From Bacteroidota bacterium (lineage in GTDB: Bacteria > Bacteroidota > Bacteroidia > Bacteroidales > JAAUTT01), in contig JAUZOO010000007.1 in assembly GCA_030706405.1 (NCBI GenBank), forward strand, positions 186,001 through 250,000: a stretch of 64,000 nucleotides of DNA, written 5' to 3'. The first letter of the stretch is position 1; every line of letters starts with the position of its first letter. A model generated the notes under the pieces. The model made no database searches. It worked only from the letters and a program-made list of their open reading frames with translations, and had not been told where the DNA came from. The position numbers were made by a program, and so were the translations under genes. Shown here piece by piece: positions 1 through 52,140 of this stretch.

Positions 1-290
1 TGATTGTCAATAACCGGTTGATGAAATTCATCGCTTAACTGGTTAGTGGTTAAATGTTCCATAAATTTGGAAATAATTTTCAAATTTTCCTATCAAAAAA
101 GTACTGTCTCATCTTAAGAAATTTTTATTTTTACAAATAGTAAACCTTATCGATTACTGCGTAGTTGTAAGTGATCTTTAAGTTGGACAGGACTTTGGCA
201 GGGTTTGGATTTAAAGTTTTAAAGAAATGTAGCATTTTATTTTTGGTCAAGTTTTTAGCTTGCCCTTATCGGCTATATACACATTCCAGG
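1..290. other. Window edge, no gene seen
   Basis: This stretch lies downstream of the minus-strand repressor gene and runs to the window edge. I see no convincing gene, tRNA or hairpin terminator in it. The only open frame (171-353, plus) overlaps the repressor's 3' end and has no recognisable features, so I treat it as chance. Confidence 0.5.
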
Positions 291-737
291 TTACCCAACC
301 TTTCTTTTTTGCCCACGTTGCGGATGTGTGAGCTCTTCAATTTTTTCCTGTAGATTTTCGATTGTTATTTCCTGCGCTTTTACAGTCTTTTCCATGGCTG
401 TAATTGTGCGATCTTTTTCTTTGCACAACTCACAAGCTAAATTTGGAAGTGCCGCCATCTTTCTTTCTTCGCCAGGAGGACTCAGGACCTCCTGCATTTT
501 TGTTGCATGATCTTTTGGTAATAACATCATGTCGCCTTCGCCGGTAATAAACCATCGTGGATTTATGTCGGAAAATGTTGATATTATTTTGTGTATAACT
601 TCAAATGATGGATTTGTTCTTCTGCCCGAGACGATATGGTGTAGCGTTTGAGGTTGGATGTTTGTTGCAGTACTAAATGAGTTTTTGTTCAGTCCTTTAA
701 TTTTGATTATTTCTAAAATCCGATCCTGAATATTCAT
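291..737 (-). CDS. XRE/CI-type helix-turn-helix repressor with coiled-coil tail
   Basis: A predicted DNA-binding regulator of 148 aa. Residues ~1-70 form an XRE-type helix-turn-helix (FSTATNIQPQTLHHIVSGRR) followed by NPRWFITGEGDM, a segment typical of phage-like repressors in Bacteroidota. Residues ~105-140 are rich in E, K, I and L in heptad-like spacing and probably form a dimerising coiled coil. I chose the ATG at 737 over a TTG two codons upstream. A perfect 14-bp palindrome lies 9 bp upstream of that ATG, and a 15-bp inverted repeat lies beyond it, so autoregulation is likely (inference). It diverges from the PLP-enzyme gene at 940. No phage genes are nearby, so a domesticated or orphan regulator is plausible. 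The target is unknown. Confidence 0.8.
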   Translation of the reverse strand: MNIQDRILEIIKIKGLNKNSFSTATNIQPQTLHHIVSGRRTNPSFEVIHKIISTFSDINPRWFITGEGDMMLLPKDHATKMQEVLSPPGEERKMAALPNLACELCKEKDRTITAMEKTVKAQEITIENLQEKIEELTHPQRGQKRKVG

Positions 738-746
738 ATGCAATTT

Positions 747-760
747 TTCTTACGTAAGAA
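747..760. promoter_or_regulatory. 14-bp perfect palindrome (candidate operator)
   Basis: TTCTTACGTAAGAA reads identically on both strands and sits 9 bp from the repressor start codon, where bound protein would block transcription or translation initiation of the repressor gene. The operator role is inferred from position and symmetry. Confidence 0.5.
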
Positions 761-765
761 TAAAT

Positions 766-808
766 ATATAGGAATATGTTGCAATATTCATAAAACATAT
801 TCCTATAT
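766..808. promoter_or_regulatory. 15-bp perfect inverted repeat, 13-bp spacer (candidate operator)
   Basis: The left arm atataggaatatgtt (766-780) and right arm aacatattcctatat (794-808) are exact reverse complements. The right arm overlaps a plus-strand TAnnTTTG match (TATATTTG, 804-811) pointing toward the gene at 940. A site like this could repress transcription in both directions, or it could be a transcript hairpin. Confidence 0.5.
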
Positions 809-811
809 TTG
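804..811 (+). promoter_or_regulatory. Bacteroidota-type -7 element
   Basis: TATATTTG fits the Bacteroidota -7 consensus TAnnTTTG. A TTG at 779-781 is a weak -33 candidate with a slightly long 22-bp spacer. It would drive the gene at 940 with a leader of about 120 nt. It overlaps the inverted repeat at 766-808. Confidence 0.4.
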
Positions 812-939
812 TTATATAAAAATACATCAAATAATTCATAAAAATGGGATAGTTCGTGCCTTTCTAAAACGATGAATTATTCTATGCCTCGTTAGCCATA
901 AACAATGTTCACATTTCTATAAATTAAAATTTCAAAAGT

Positions 940-2214
940 ATGAGCAGTAAATTTTATGATCAGTTGACGACAATCGTTCAATCGTCTATTAATTTGGGAA
1001 TTGGCCATTTAACAACTGACGCCAATGGCTTTGCAGGTAATTCATTTGTGGCGCGCGGCAAAAAACTTATCAATTTTGCTCTTTGCGATTATTTGGCTTT
1101 AGGGCACGATGACAGACTAAAAAAGGGAGCTATCAGGGCAATTTTGGATCATGGGTTCTTTGCTTCTGTGTCCAAAGTTTATGTGAAGTTGGACATCTAT
1201 GAGAAAGCAGAGGAATACCTTTCGTATGTTTTTGACAAACCAACCTTGTTGTTTCCCCGAACAACGCTTGCTCACATGGGAGTGTTACCCGTACTTGCGG
1301 ATAAGGACGATGCTGTGATTCTTGATCATCATGTACATACCAGTGTACGTGTGGCATCGGACCTGCTTAGAAGTTACGGTGTACATGTCGAAACTATTCG
1401 GCATAACCGAATGGATATTCTGGAAGATCGAATCAAAGATCTCAAAAACAAATACACACATGTTTGGTACCTTGCCGATGGTATATATTCGACGTATGGA
1501 GACAATCTTCCAATCAATGATATACGCCGACTGCTCAATGATTACGAACAATTTCATGTTTACATCGACGATTCGCATGGCATGAGCTGGGCTGGAACCA
1601 ATGGTAAAGGATTTATAAACGAGAATCTGGGAAGTCATCCGCATATGATTCTATCCACATCCCTTTGTAAGGGTTATGGAGCCGAAGGAGGCGTAATTGT
1701 TTGCAATGACGAAGAAGTTAAGAAAAAGTTGGGAACCTGCGCTGCTCCCCTAATCTTTACTTCGCCTATAAGTCCGTCAACCTTGGGCGCTATTATTGAA
1801 TCAGCCAAAATTCATCTTTCCAGCGAAATTGACATACGGCAAGCCGAACTTAAAGAGCGTATCGATCTTTTTAATACAACATCGCAACAATTAGAACTTC
1901 CGTTAATCAGTGCTCCCAATACTCCCATTGGCTTTTTCTTTACAGGTGCAACCGATTTAAGTCAGGAGCTCTGCGCAAGCCTTATGCGAAGAGGATATTA
2001 TGTCAATGCATTTCATTTTCCGGCAGTTCCTGTTAATAGTTCAGGGGTGCGCTCGCTAGTTAGCCTTTACCAAAGTCTCGACGACATTACAGGGCTTTTG
2101 ACTACTCTGCGCGAAGAATATGATATTGCACTGAAGAAAAGAGGGATGACAATGGCTGAGATTTTACCCCGTCACCGGGAGATCAAACGACTGGAAGAAG
2201 AATTCTTGTCGTAG
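940..2214 (+). CDS. Alpha-oxoamine synthase-like PLP-dependent enzyme
   Basis: A fold-type I PLP enzyme of 424 aa related to the alpha-oxoamine synthases (glycine C-acetyltransferase, 8-amino-7-oxononanoate synthase, serine palmitoyltransferase), which condense an amino acid with an acyl thioester. Family landmarks are a histidine-rich segment near residue 130 (DHHVHTS), the PLP-contacting DDSHGMSW near residue 210, and the Schiff-base lysine in STSLCKGYGAEGG near residue 245. The ~400-aa length is normal; a charged helical tail of ~30 residues ends the protein. No biotin, threonine or sphingolipid gene adjoins it, so the substrate is undefined. It is divergent from the repressor at 291 and may be under its control. 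Confidence 0.75.
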   Translation: MSSKFYDQLTTIVQSSINLGIGHLTTDANGFAGNSFVARGKKLINFALCDYLALGHDDRLKKGAIRAILDHGFFASVSKVYVKLDIYEKAEEYLSYVFDKPTLLFPRTTLAHMGVLPVLADKDDAVILDHHVHTSVRVASDLLRSYGVHVETIRHNRMDILEDRIKDLKNKYTHVWYLADGIYSTYGDNLPINDIRRLLNDYEQFHVYIDDSHGMSWAGTNGKGFINENLGSHPHMILSTSLCKGYGAEGGVIVCNDEEVKKKLGTCAAPLIFTSPISPSTLGAIIESAKIHLSSEIDIRQAELKERIDLFNTTSQQLELPLISAPNTPIGFFFTGATDLSQELCASLMRRGYYVNAFHFPAVPVNSSGVRSLVSLYQSLDDITGLLTTLREEYDIALKKRGMTMAEILPRHREIKRLEEEFLS

Positions 2215-2252
2215 CTTATTATGAACGATTTTGGCAGAACATTGATATTCTG

Positions 2253-2813
2253 TCAAAATCGTTTGTTTATTAAAAAATTATCAGCATAGATCACATTTGC
2301 ATAAAAATAACTCAACGCCGATAGAAACGCAGTCTGGACATCTTCAGCCAAAGTTGTTTTACCAAACACCATTAAATCCTTCGTAGCACAGGCATCGCCA
2401 ATTAATGTACAGGTAAAGCCAAAATCCTTTGCCGCACGTACCGTTGCATCCACACACATGTGCGTCATCATCCCGCAAATAACAAGTTCTGAGGTTTGAA
2501 GTGATTTTAGGGTGGTTAATAATTCTGTATCCCTGAAGCTGTTGGGAAAATGCTTTACGATGACGGGTTCACCATTTACGGGCTTTACGCTTTCGTGAAT
2601 GTCGGCACCTGTTGTTCCCGAAACAAAGAACGAAGCTCCCGGCCGGTTGGCTATATGTTGAATGTGAATAATCGGTAACCCTTTATTCCGGAAATCCGTT
2701 AATACATCTTTGGCTTTAAGGCTTGCCTCTAAACTGCCGATTAGCGGATTAGTACCTCCCTGAAAATAATCGTTCTGAATATCGATAATAAGCAATACCT
2801 TTTGTGCTTTCAT
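2253..2813 (-). CDS. Isochorismatase-family cysteine hydrolase
   Basis: A predicted 186-aa soluble cysteine hydrolase of the isochorismatase/nicotinamidase fold. The catalytic triad is visible: Asp in LLIIDIQNDYF near the N terminus, Lys in VIVKHFPNSF near residue 100, and the nucleophilic Cys in MMTHMCVDATVRAA near residue 135. ATG at 2813 is preferred to the TTG two codons upstream. Length is typical. The substrate cannot be assigned: family members hydrolyse nicotinamide, isochorismate, ureido compounds and others, and the neighbours give no pathway. It is convergent with the PLP-enzyme gene. Confidence 0.85.
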   Translation of the reverse strand: MKAQKVLLIIDIQNDYFQGGTNPLIGSLEASLKAKDVLTDFRNKGLPIIHIQHIANRPGASFFVSGTTGADIHESVKPVNGEPVIVKHFPNSFRDTELLTTLKSLQTSELVICGMMTHMCVDATVRAAKDFGFTCTLIGDACATKDLMVFGKTTLAEDVQTAFLSALSYFYANVIYADNFLINKRF

Positions 2814-2953
2814 CTTCAATTATCCTGTTTTATTTAATGAGATTAATTTTGACAACGTAAGTTTGAATACTTGGTTAGTTGCATTTTACATCAATTCGTC
2901 CACCGTCTGATACTATTACGGCAATATTCTGGGTTATATTTTTTCTATTTATG

Positions 2954-2961
2954 TACTTTTG
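2954..2961 (+). promoter_or_regulatory. -7 element close to a start codon
   Basis: TACTTTTG matches TAnnTTTG exactly and lies 13 bp before the ATG at 2975. The transcript would have a leader of only about 6 nt, with no room for a ribosome-binding site. No good -33 element is seen. Confidence 0.35.
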
Positions 2962-2974
2962 CTTTTTTACTATC

Positions 2975-3307
2975 ATGGAAGAGAAAAGAAACAATAAAAC
3001 GCCTCAGGAAAATACCAACAAATCGTCGAATATCCTTGGGGCTTCATCCAATTTGCTGGGTTTATGCTTTATCGTAATGACTTCGTTGAAGATACTTAAG
3101 CTCACTACACAGGCCCGTACCGTAAATAAATTTATGATTATTGCCATTGTAGCATTTATGGCAAGCAGCGTATTTTCATTCCTGGCAATCCGGTCGAAAA
3201 CCAAACGGGGAATTTTGTTCGAAAACATCGCCGATATTGTCTTTCTGGTAGGTTTATTTATCCTCTTCGGAACAACAATGCTTATTGCTTTCGATTTTAT
3301 AATGTAA
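2975..3307 (+). CDS. Small three-helix membrane protein, unknown function
   Basis: A 110-aa protein with a charged, Asn/Lys-rich N terminus (~20 residues) followed by hydrophobic segments near residues 22-38, 50-68 and 85-108, so probably three membrane helices. I do not recognise a family. An upstream in-frame extension to 2879 exists, but the -7 element at 2954 and the charged MEEKRNNK start argue for 2975. It is convergent with rodA, 12 bp away. Confidence 0.6.
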   Translation: MEEKRNNKTPQENTNKSSNILGASSNLLGLCFIVMTSLKILKLTTQARTVNKFMIIAIVAFMASSVFSFLAIRSKTKRGILFENIADIVFLVGLFILFGTTMLIAFDFIM

Positions 3308-3319
3308 AAGGCCTTTACG

Positions 3320-4747
3320 CTACCGGAACAGTTCCAGACGACTGGAATCCAATTTTAAAAGAATAAACAACAACACTGTAAACGACCATAACGACGACCC
3401 TCCGTAACTAAAGAACGGTAATGGGATACCAATTACCGGCAGAAGTCCGATGGTCATCCCAACATTGATCGCCACATGAAAGAAAAATATAGACGCGACA
3501 CTATACGCATAAACACGACTGAATACCGAGCGCTGTCGCTCGGCCATGGCAACAATACGCAGAAGCAGAAATAAAAACAGGCCGATAACTACCGATGTGC
3601 CTACAAATCCCCACTCTTCGCCCACAGTACAGAAAATAAAGTCGGTACTCTGCTCCGGGACAAAATTATATTTAGTTTGTGTGCCCTGAAGAAAGCCTTT
3701 TCCCAACACTCCGCCGGAGCCAATGGCAATCATCGACTGGTTAACGTTATAACCCATTCCAAGCGGGTCGGATTCGAGCCCCAGCAAGATATTCATACGC
3801 GTACGCTGGTGCTCTTCCAGTGCATGATGGAACACATAATCAACGGAAAATGTGAACAGTATAGCTCCAAGCAGGAATAATACAAAGGATGCCAGAAACC
3901 TGATTTTACGAAAGAATGAAACCACCAGGAAAGCTATCCCCGACACCACAAATGAAGCTGCAATAATGTAATAATAATCGAGTCCCAAGTGTCCGATGGC
4001 CGAGATTGCCCATAAAAGTAAAGACAGTCCGCTAAATAGCAGAAAACCCAGCCCTGTTTCGCGGTAACGGCCGGTAAAAAAGGCAAAGGCTACGAAGCCT
4101 GCTCCAACAATTATAGAGACAATCAGTAGTTTCGATAATAGTAGCGATGTGATAAACAATACGCCCAGCATAAACCCGAATAACAGGAATGCTCCCGGCA
4201 ATCCTTCGCGGAACAAAACAATCGAAAATGAAAGATATACGAGCAATGAACCTGCATCCGGTTGCAGCAGGATTAGCAACATGGGTAAACCAATAATTAT
4301 TCCGATAATAACGAATGTCGACGAATTGTTGAATTTTATATTCTCCGATCCCATAAATTTAGCCAAAGCCAAAGCCGTGGCCACCTTTGCAAATTCGGCC
4401 GGCTGAAGTCCAAAACTTCCAATTCTAAACCACGAACGGGCTCCATTCACTTTTTGGCCGACCACCAACACCAACATCAATAACAGAATACAAGCCCCAT
4501 AAAGTAAATAAGCCGAAACAGTAAAGACTTTTAAATCAACCAGAATAATAACGGTGGCAATAATAAAAGCGGCCGCAATTAAAATCATCTGAGAACCATA
4601 ACGCTGCGAAAAATCAAAAATGTTTTTATGTTCTTCATTATATACCGCAGCATAAATATTTATCCACCCAATAAGCACCAGAACAACATAGACAACAACA
4701 GTTATCCAATCGATGCCGGAGGCCATATTTTCTTTTCTGTTAATCAT
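3320..4747 (-). CDS. rodA: Peptidoglycan glycosyltransferase RodA
   Basis: A SEDS-family polytopic glycosyltransferase that polymerises lipid II during lateral wall growth, in partnership with PBP2. It has 475 aa and many membrane helices. Family motifs are GARSWFRIGSFGLQPAEFAK, GMGYNVNQSMIAIGSGG, and PEQSTDFIFCTVGEEWGF with the conserved Asp. It is longer than the ~370-aa enterobacterial RodA because of an extra hydrophobic stretch in the middle (roughly residues 195-300), a common feature in Bacteroidota. Its ATG overlaps the mrdA stop codon (ATGA), so translation is probably coupled. Last gene of the purH-mre operon. Confidence 0.93.
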   Translation of the reverse strand: MINRKENMASGIDWITVVVYVVLVLIGWINIYAAVYNEEHKNIFDFSQRYGSQMILIAAAFIIATVIILVDLKVFTVSAYLLYGACILLLMLVLVVGQKVNGARSWFRIGSFGLQPAEFAKVATALALAKFMGSENIKFNNSSTFVIIGIIIGLPMLLILLQPDAGSLLVYLSFSIVLFREGLPGAFLLFGFMLGVLFITSLLLSKLLIVSIIVGAGFVAFAFFTGRYRETGLGFLLFSGLSLLLWAISAIGHLGLDYYYIIAASFVVSGIAFLVVSFFRKIRFLASFVLFLLGAILFTFSVDYVFHHALEEHQRTRMNILLGLESDPLGMGYNVNQSMIAIGSGGVLGKGFLQGTQTKYNFVPEQSTDFIFCTVGEEWGFVGTSVVIGLFLFLLLRIVAMAERQRSVFSRVYAYSVASIFFFHVAINVGMTIGLLPVIGIPLPFFSYGGSSLWSFTVLLFILLKLDSSRLELFR

Positions 4748-6555
4748 ATCTTCCGTTTAAAGGTTAACATCCGGTCTTGAAGTGCTGGTCGGGAAATCGA
4801 ACCTTTTAAGTATTTTTCAATCATCAAGCTGCCAATGGGGACAGCCCACGTAGCACCAAATCCTCCATTTTCGACATAAACAGCTAATGCAATTTTAGGA
4901 TTATTGCGTGGTGCAAAAGCAATAAAAATTGAATGGTCTTCGCCATGTGGGTTTTGAGCGGTACCGGTTTTTCCGCAAATGGGAATATCGGCAAGCCTTC
5001 CAATACCTGCAGTACCTGCGCCATTTACGGCCTGGTACATTCCTTCCACAACAATACTGTATAAGGTAGAGTCGAAAGGAGTGGTGTGCTTTTCTTTAAA
5101 CCGGGGATCAATATTGGTACGTCCGCGGATTTTCTTTACCACGTGAGGTGTGTAATAATACCCACGGTTAGCAATGGTTGCAGCCATGTTGGCCATTTGA
5201 ATCGGGGTAATTCCCAACTCACCCTGTCCGATGGACAATGAAATAATTGAATATGCATTCCAATGGTGTGCTCCGTGGAATTTGTCATAGTATTTAACGG
5301 TAGGCACATATCCGTTTAATTCGTTGGGAACATCGCTGTTAAGCTTGCGTCCGAACCCAAAAGCCTTCACATAATCGTACCATTGCTGATACCCGGCTTC
5401 GGATGATCCGAATTCCCGGTTTTCAACAATCGACCTGAAAACATTACAGAAATAAGCATTACAAGAGATTGCAATGGCTGCGGTAAGGTTTAACGGGGAT
5501 GGATGATTGTGGCACTTTAGAACGCGGTTGCCAAAATGAAATCCTCCAGCACAGGAATAGCGGGTTTCGGTGGATAACACTCCTTCTTTCAGGCCTATCA
5601 ATGTGTTCAGTAACTTAAATGTAGATCCCGGAGGGTATTTTGCCATCACAGGGCGAAAGAACAAAGGCTTGAGCGGATCTCTCTGCAGAGCTGCGTAATT
5701 CGCCGCACGTGAACGACCAATCAACAATGCCGGGTCGTACGTTGGCATCGATACCATGGCGAGGATTTCACCTGTTGACGGCTCAATGGCCACAATACTT
5801 CCGCTCATATTTTGCATCAGGTATTCGCCATATTCCTGCAGGGAAGCATCGAGCGATGTAGTCAGGTCTGCTCCAGCCACAGCAGTGGTGTCGAACCGCC
5901 CGTTTTGGAACGAGCCTTTCACGCGGTTATGAACGTCGACCAACAGGATGTTTACCCCTTTTTTTCCCCGCAATTCGGTTTCGTACGATTTTTCGATGCC
6001 GCTGATGCCGATATAGTCGCCCATTTTATAGTAGGGCTCCTTTTTAATGACATTGTCGTCGGCTTCGCCCACATACCCAAGCACGTGTGCTGCTATCTTT
6101 TTCTGATATTTACGTAAAGTTCGCGTTTGGACGAAGAAACCTGGATATTTGTACATTTTTTCTTCGAACACGGCATACGTTTCAGCAGATATTTGTTTTA
6201 AAAATACCGACGACCGGTAAATCGAGTATTTACGGGCCAAACGAATATTGTCACGGACATATTTAGGCGTGATGTTCAGTAAATTGCAGAACTCAGTAGT
6301 GTCAAACGGCTTTAATTGAATTGGCGTAACCATAATGTCGTACGCAGCTTCATTGTAGGCGATCATTTTACCATTCCGGTCGTAAATAACCCCGCGGGCA
6401 GGGTACTGTGTTACATAACGACGCGAATTGTTCTCTGCCGAATATTTATAGGAAAGGTCAATAATCTGAATATAGGCCAGCCGTAAAAGGTATATCAGTA
6501 CGGTTGCTATGAATATTGCGCTAATGATGTATCGTCGGGAAGCGTACGGATTCAT
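4744..6555 (-). CDS. mrdA: Penicillin-binding protein 2 (elongasome transpeptidase)
   Basis: A class B penicillin-binding protein of 603 aa that cross-links peptidoglycan and activates RodA. It has one N-terminal membrane anchor (~residues 8-27), a dimerisation/pedestal domain, and a transpeptidase domain from ~residue 250. Active-site motifs are present: SxxK in PPGSTFKLL, SxN in ISCNAYFCN, and KTG in CGKTGTAQNP. Length is normal. It is one base from mreD upstream and overlaps rodA downstream, so the two partner enzymes are co-translated. Confidence 0.95.
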   Translation of the reverse strand: MNPYASRRYIISAIFIATVLIYLLRLAYIQIIDLSYKYSAENNSRRYVTQYPARGVIYDRNGKMIAYNEAAYDIMVTPIQLKPFDTTEFCNLLNITPKYVRDNIRLARKYSIYRSSVFLKQISAETYAVFEEKMYKYPGFFVQTRTLRKYQKKIAAHVLGYVGEADDNVIKKEPYYKMGDYIGISGIEKSYETELRGKKGVNILLVDVHNRVKGSFQNGRFDTTAVAGADLTTSLDASLQEYGEYLMQNMSGSIVAIEPSTGEILAMVSMPTYDPALLIGRSRAANYAALQRDPLKPLFFRPVMAKYPPGSTFKLLNTLIGLKEGVLSTETRYSCAGGFHFGNRVLKCHNHPSPLNLTAAIAISCNAYFCNVFRSIVENREFGSSEAGYQQWYDYVKAFGFGRKLNSDVPNELNGYVPTVKYYDKFHGAHHWNAYSIISLSIGQGELGITPIQMANMAATIANRGYYYTPHVVKKIRGRTNIDPRFKEKHTTPFDSTLYSIVVEGMYQAVNGAGTAGIGRLADIPICGKTGTAQNPHGEDHSIFIAFAPRNNPKIALAVYVENGGFGATWAVPIGSLMIEKYLKGSISRPALQDRMLTFKRKI

Positions 6556-17000: not shown

Positions 17001-17035
17001 AAAAAGCCCGGTTGGAATCTCCAACCGGGCTTTTT
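17001..17035. terminator. Bidirectional hairpin terminator
   Basis: A perfect 15-bp stem (AAAAAGCCCGGTTGG, loop AATCT) is followed by T-rich sequence in both directions. It sits between the convergent RRM gene and nucleotidyltransferase gene and can serve both. Confidence 0.9.
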
Positions 17036-52104: not shown

Positions 52105-52140
52105 AGGGCTTCATGTTGGCAGCTGCCAACATGAAGCCCT
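52105..52140. terminator. Perfect 36-bp palindrome between convergent genes
   Basis: The half AGGGCTTCATGTTGGCAG is followed at once by its exact reverse complement, giving an 18-bp stem without spacer. It sits between convergent genes ending at 52069 and 52159, so a bidirectional terminator is the natural reading, although no T-run follows on either strand. Confidence 0.65.

Follow-up and report, generated by a model that had tools for sequence, protein, structure and literature searches.

Repressors of phage type are often found without a phage, and to our knowledge the targets of such phage-less repressors are rarely known. The locus described here raises the question of what an XRE regulator of this type controls when its nearest divergent neighbor is the gene of a metabolic PLP enzyme. 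The window, by which we mean the whole 64-kb stretch of DNA analyzed (C19:186001-250000), belongs to a 4.93-Mb genome of 21 contigs from the order Bacteroidales. The operator proposed below was readable from comparison alone and points to one neighboring gene, which makes the case open to direct testing.

XRE Regulator and Its Phage Kinship

The regulator gene (291..737, minus strand) is predicted to encode an XRE/CI-type helix-turn-helix protein of 148 amino acids, as judged from Pfam, PHROG transcription-regulation families and alignments. Its ATG lies at 737 on the minus strand and the PLP gene runs from 940 to 2214 on the plus strand, so that the two genes are divergent. In Pfam the protein reaches 25.0 bits with HTH_26 (cut-off, 22) and 23.2 bits with HTH_3 (cut-off, 23), which gives it a Cro/C1-type HTH domain, and alignments identify its recognition helix as IQPQTLHHI. 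Pfam detected neither a Peptidase_S24 domain, so the protein does not class with the LexA/S24-type inducible repressors, nor a recognizable ligand domain; the C-terminus is coiled-coil-like by prediction (judged by eye). Relatives of the regulator occur in 33 of 393 genomes of the order, its own genome counted (E <= 1e-12). Its DNA-binding domain was found across the phylum in one of 395 genomes at 1e-15, the window's own, and in one of five genomes within the family of G169, which corresponds to Coprobacter secundus 177. Annotated phages gave no match at 1e-5, and plasmids gave distant matches only (5 records, 31-39% identity).

The window XRE aligns at 63% over 70 residues with the XRE protein of a Mu-like contig, L104, and is thereby related to a Mu-like phage repressor. 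Divergent from the XRE gene of L104 stand MuA-like and MuB-like genes, one encoding a protein that matches a PHROG transposase family (E 1.2e-26) and the other a protein that matches a PHROG DNA transposition protein family (7.6e-23); the rve match of the transposase is 29.5 bits, which is under the Pfam cut-off of 32.6. Because these transposition genes are divergent from a related XRE gene, the window XRE is, by sequence, kin of a transposable-phage repressor, and movement from phage to host and from host to phage would both be compatible with that kinship. No transposition or structural phage genes were recognized, partly by eye, in the 14-kb stretch around the XRE gene (L042), where a resident Mu-like prophage would have both alongside.

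Symmetric Sites in the Divergent Region

An earlier note on this DNA had singled out two symmetric sites between the divergent genes, and both are present as perfect symmetries: a 14-bp palindrome, TTCTTACGTAAGAA, at 747-760, and an inverted repeat at 766-808 with 15-bp arms, ATATAGGAATATGTT (766-780) and AACATATTCCTATAT (794-808), and 13 bp between them. The inverted repeat is above chance, since none of 3000 dinucleotide shuffles of 738-939 produced a perfect one whose arms were 15 bp or longer and no more than 30 bp apart. The palindrome is not above chance, since perfect palindromes of 14 bp or more arose in 201 of 3000 such shuffles, and the window as a whole has five of them, as against a mean of 5.2 (range, 1 to 11) over 10 shuffles. 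It was found at a single place in the genome at 0-1 mismatch, and upstream of the three XRE relatives that share the recognition helix its best matches had 5, 5, and 6 mismatches, which is no better than shuffles. Being at chance level and missing upstream of these relatives, the palindrome was rejected as a second operator and the regulatory role claimed for it was not borne out. Two other long perfect inverted repeats of the window, at 17001-17035 and 52105-52140, lie between convergent genes and are probably bidirectional terminators.

To follow the inverted repeat among relatives, the half-site AACATATTCCTATAT was scored over the 150 bp preceding each XRE gene, both in relatives from the order and at further XRE loci, which gave 35 rows comprising the window and 32 distinct relatives (L055 is the same as L101, and L054 the same as L102). 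The two copies in the window stand at -71 and -43 from the XRE start. In Coprobacter secundus, which is of another Bacteroidales family, the half-site occurs with one mismatch at -69 and -44, again inverted, and with three mismatches at -11 (0 of 300 shuffles as good). In the Mu-like contig it is found twice, at -41 and -11, each time with three mismatches and in direct order (3 of 300 shuffles as good). L102, whose XRE has the same recognition helix, shows one weak site with three mismatches at -48 (15 of 300 shuffles), and its upstream region scores 19 against the window operator. Among the 29 distinct relatives with other helices, two reach three mismatches (L060, 11 of 300 shuffles; L074, 23 of 300) and none does better. 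A site near the regulator's own start that is kept together with the recognition helix was thus found strongly in Coprobacter and the Mu-like contig and weakly in L102.

Pattern searches were also made, and their counts are partly circular rather than blind because the degeneracies were widened after the relatives had been seen. The inverted pattern TAGGAAWWTGTTN{2,30}AACAWWTTCCTA was found in two of 393 genomes of the order, the window's own (G000) and G169, in both at these XRE genes, and the reversed-pattern control was found in neither of the two. IMG/VR contigs contained no inverted pattern, and the direct pattern hit one stretch in the whole IMG/VR collection, which is the Mu-like contig. 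Among the matches listed, the exact pattern AACAWWTTCCTATR occupies three places in G169, each of them before its XRE gene, and likewise three in G000, of which two are at the window operator; motif places in G346 and G199 fall outside the matches listed. The operator motif shows no genome-wide excess, with 26 places at <=1 mismatch versus 55 for the reversed control, which is why a wider regulon in this genome was rejected. A PLP gene was present in none of 36 XRE loci (those from genome searches span 1.5 kb on each side) and an XRE gene in none of 22 PLP loci, so that no second locus with the pair was found among them.

Because the repeat recurs with the recognition helix of the XRE protein and not with the PLP gene, this protein very probably has its operator here. 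Spacing between copies varies, from 28 bp in the window to 25 in Coprobacter and to 30 and 33 for other neighboring copies, and orientation varies too, which leads us to think that each copy is its own predicted binding unit. The repeat is therefore better read as two neighboring operators that face each other: copy 1 at 766..780 (AACATATTCCTATAT on the minus strand), nearer the XRE gene, and copy 2 at 794..808 (AACATATTCCTATAT on the plus strand). The part of the earlier note that took the repeat for a regulator's site is upheld by these comparisons, and the part that took it for a single symmetric site gives way to a facing pair. A single copy as a self-contained palindrome was also rejected, the dyad within the 15-mer not being significant (282 of 2000 column permutations).

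Among the other XRE relatives, TTACATTTGTAA-like palindromes are seen by eye upstream of the XRE genes of L064, L071, L073, L076, L077, and L079 and are probably their own operators. In L102, the divergent neighbor of the XRE gene encodes a very long membrane protein (1-4426, >1200 aa), and a DDE transposase gene (4882-6126) lies near the XRE gene.

Candidate Promoter and Leader of the PLP Gene

Bacteroides promoters carry TAnnTTTG near -7 and TTTG near -33 (PMC7366714). In the window, TATATTTG at 804..811 on the plus strand fits TAnnTTTG, is the sole exact match to it on that strand within 706-939, and is our candidate -7 element of the PLP gene; a TTG at 779-781 on the same strand is, by eye, a possible -33 element. 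As had been observed earlier, the right arm of the repeat overlaps this -7 element: operator copy 2 shares 5 bp with it, and copy 1 covers most of the TTG. No exact -7 element lies close by for the XRE gene, the nearest on the minus strand being at 933-940.

The DNA to the right of the operator was compared with the upstream regions of two relatives of the PLP gene, in G199 (50%) and G041 (49%), which lack the inverted pattern and whose PLP and kinase genes have no XRE gene between them. Aligned with the G199 region, 761-939 scored 37 (1 of 1000 shuffles as good), with TATATTTG paired with TAGATTTG and TATATTTGTTAT paired with TATAGATTTGTTAT; it scored 32 with G041 (50 of 1000 shuffles) and 19 with G003 (230 of 1000). 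Ranked against 321 real upstream regions, a set that leaves aside L080-L099 and the own-genome loci L001, L031, L042, L083, L098, L108, and L109, the same stretch matched best the Coprobacter XRE region (43), then the PLP regions of G199 (37) and G041 (32), the next scoring 30; the XRE regions of the Mu-like contig and L102 were outside the best 12 of the 321. When the operator was removed and 809-939 was ranked on the same strand, G041 (32) and G199 (31) still led by a thin margin, followed by a region at 30, and with both strands counted an unrelated region ties at 32. By the alignments and ranking, 809..845 on the plus strand is a stretch that resembles the leader of the two PLP relatives.

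The PLP gene starts 128 bp past the -7 element, compared with 43 bp in G199. Relative to G199 and G041, about 95 bp of the leader (845-939) are extra, and an imperfect inverted repeat is found at 825-839/872-886. A structured leader RNA was considered for 812-950 and rejected (z -1.35, 18 of 200 shuffles as good), and Rfam returned for the leader only a chance-level snoRNA match.

Taken by its sequence, the region looks like a mosaic in which a phage-type operator, to the left, meets an older PLP promoter with its leader, to the right, the -7 element standing at the junction. Support from the comparisons is strong for the left part and moderate for the right. The operator seems to have been joined to a PLP promoter older than itself, because the adjoining right-hand DNA resembles the promoter and leader of PLP relatives that lack an XRE gene. 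The same resemblance lends weight to the proposal, made earlier, that the -7 element under the operator belongs to the promoter of the neighboring gene.

PLP Enzyme and Sensor Kinase

The PLP gene (940..2214, plus strand) encodes a predicted alpha-oxoamine-synthase-like enzyme of 424 amino acids with an Aminotran_1_2 domain, as judged from Pfam, NCBIfam and alignments. The protein lies near PRK07505, BioF and other alpha-oxoamine synthases and reaches no NCBIfam cut-off. It contains the motif SLCKG, whose lysine we take, from knowledge of the fold, to be the Schiff-base lysine; the motif aligns with SLNKG of 8xha, and the lysine is kept in four relatives. Identity with CqsA was rejected, as the enzyme scores 90.2 bits with the CqsA equivalog model NF005526 versus a cut-off of 428, and among solved structures BioF-like enzymes match it better than CqsA does (128 vs. 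48 bits).

A gene for a membrane histidine kinase of 427 amino acids is found to the left of the XRE gene, on the minus strand; its 5' end occupies 1..31 of the window and the remainder lies to the left (C19:184748-186031). The kinase has HisKA and HATPase_c domains and a hydrophobic N-terminal domain, with five segments in a simple scan and six in the G041 counterpart. The PLP enzyme thus has a membrane sensor kinase as a neighbor. Relatives of the PLP enzyme are found in 12 of 393 genomes of the order, its own included (E <= 1e-55), and in 9 of the 11 other genomes a histidine kinase is encoded within a few genes. In G041, G199, and G003 the PLP gene is divergent from the gene of a kinase whose sensor domain is related, and in G162, G031, G132, G317, G121, and G156 the PLP gene is near other kinases; in the stretches examined of G155 and G144 no kinase was found, the PLP gene lying near a contig end. 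Viewed from the kinase, the association is less tight, as the sensor domain occurs in 42 of 324 genomes and a PLP gene lies within 1.5 kb at 3 of the 19 kinase loci examined outside the window's own. The PLP protein as a single query against the genome contigs gave no match. These neighborhoods suggest that the PLP enzyme and the kinase may form a signaling module. The pair is not filed under CqsA/CqsS, because the cut-off of the CqsA model was missed.

Several relatives have features of their own. The divergent PLP-kinase arrangement of G041, G199, and G003 (L043, L044, and L053) is a candidate synthase-sensor signaling pair. An AMP-binding ligase gene, checked against Pfam only for L051, accompanies PLP relatives beside kinases in L053 (8857-12925), L051 (7771-10650), and L052 (5446-8040), and by eye the clusters of L053 and L051 also contain an acyl-carrier-like gene. 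In L045, L048, L049, and L050 the PLP relatives are about 810 amino acids long, have a long extra C-terminal part and lie near PAS or hybrid histidine kinases, with a DUF7793 protein also nearby in L048.

What the Regulator May Control

We propose, with a probability of roughly 0.6, that 766-808 is the operator pair of a solitary phage-type XRE regulator, placed against an older PLP promoter, and that the regulator represses both itself and the PLP gene. XRE dimers would bind both operator copies, and bound protein would block RNA polymerase at the PLP promoter, with copy 2 over part of the -7 element and copy 1 over the possible -33 element, so that the regulator probably switches the neighboring PLP gene off. 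It would also limit its own synthesis, like CI-type repressors, and the position of the copies 43-71 bp upstream of its start fits such autoregulation. Since its neighbor, the PLP enzyme, resembles a small-molecule synthase and is paired with a sensor kinase, the regulator may moreover gate the signaling module of the two.

The operator pair might instead serve self-regulation of the XRE gene alone, with the PLP gene unaffected and transcribed from another promoter in 812-939, a reading that we consider possible but doubtful. It would account for the near-equal operator distances in Coprobacter (-69 and -44 vs. -71 and -43), where the PLP gene is absent, and for the length of the 128-bp leader; TATATTTG also follows the outer operator in Coprobacter, so that the -7-like string may belong to the operator itself. 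What speaks for a PLP promoter at the operator, and hence for repression of both genes, is that 812-939 is free of further exact TAnnTTTG matches on the plus strand and that the -7 element and the bases after it align with the upstream region of the G199 PLP gene. The overlap of copy 2 with the -7 element, a position usual for repression, speaks against a further reading, in which the XRE protein binds there and activates the PLP gene or answers a signal from the neighboring enzyme. Some CI-type proteins do repress and activate, and regulator, enzyme and kinase are neighbors, but the regulator has no recognized ligand domain, and we hold this reading to be quite unlikely.

Very improbable in our judgment is that the inverted repeat is an RNA hairpin, a terminator or a chance symmetry unrelated to the XRE protein. 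The window does contain the other long-armed perfect inverted repeats at 17001 and 52105; those two lie between convergent genes, whereas 766-808 lies upstream of two divergent ones, and a hairpin would not explain why XRE genes elsewhere also have the 15-mer, in both inverted and direct order. Repression of both genes from the operator pair stays our preferred reading. A bolder version of it would make the locus a CqsA/CqsS-like synthase-sensor pair of Bacteroidales that makes and senses a small lipid-like signal and has come under an immobilized Mu-like-phage repressor whose operator became fused to the synthase promoter, so that a former lysogeny switch gates the signal; we offer it as speculation that is rather unlikely to hold as a whole. 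Should the synthase-kinase pair be a signaling system, the range of synthase-sensor quorum sensing would reach into Bacteroidales, and the locus would illustrate how a phage switch can be wired into such sensing.

Comparison with Known Systems

The literature searched, some of it in excerpted form, contained no description of such a locus, which is not proof of absence. The CI/RepC-type repressors of transposable, Mu-like Bacteroides phages, of which the hankyphage RepC-HP is an example (PMC12135933), are, like the window XRE, small CI-like HTH proteins. In contrast to RepC-HP, to which it is likened by description, the window XRE has a PLP enzyme gene as its neighbor and no recognized phage gene in the 14 kb around it. 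The solitary XRE-S24 protein of Coprobacter secundus 177 (L101) is 61% identical to the window XRE over 75 residues and has the same recognition helix and an inverted operator pair at near-equal distance. Unlike the window, L101 has a third operator copy, carries Peptidase_S24, differs by 3 bp in the spacing of the pair and is without a PLP gene. With the alpha-hydroxyketone quorum sensing systems CqsA/CqsS and LqsA/LqsS (PMC3376566; PMC3285556), the locus shares a PLP enzyme of the alpha-oxoamine-synthase fold and a membrane sensor histidine kinase, whereas its enzyme falls under the CqsA cut-off (90 vs. 428 bits) and is closer to BioF-like enzymes.
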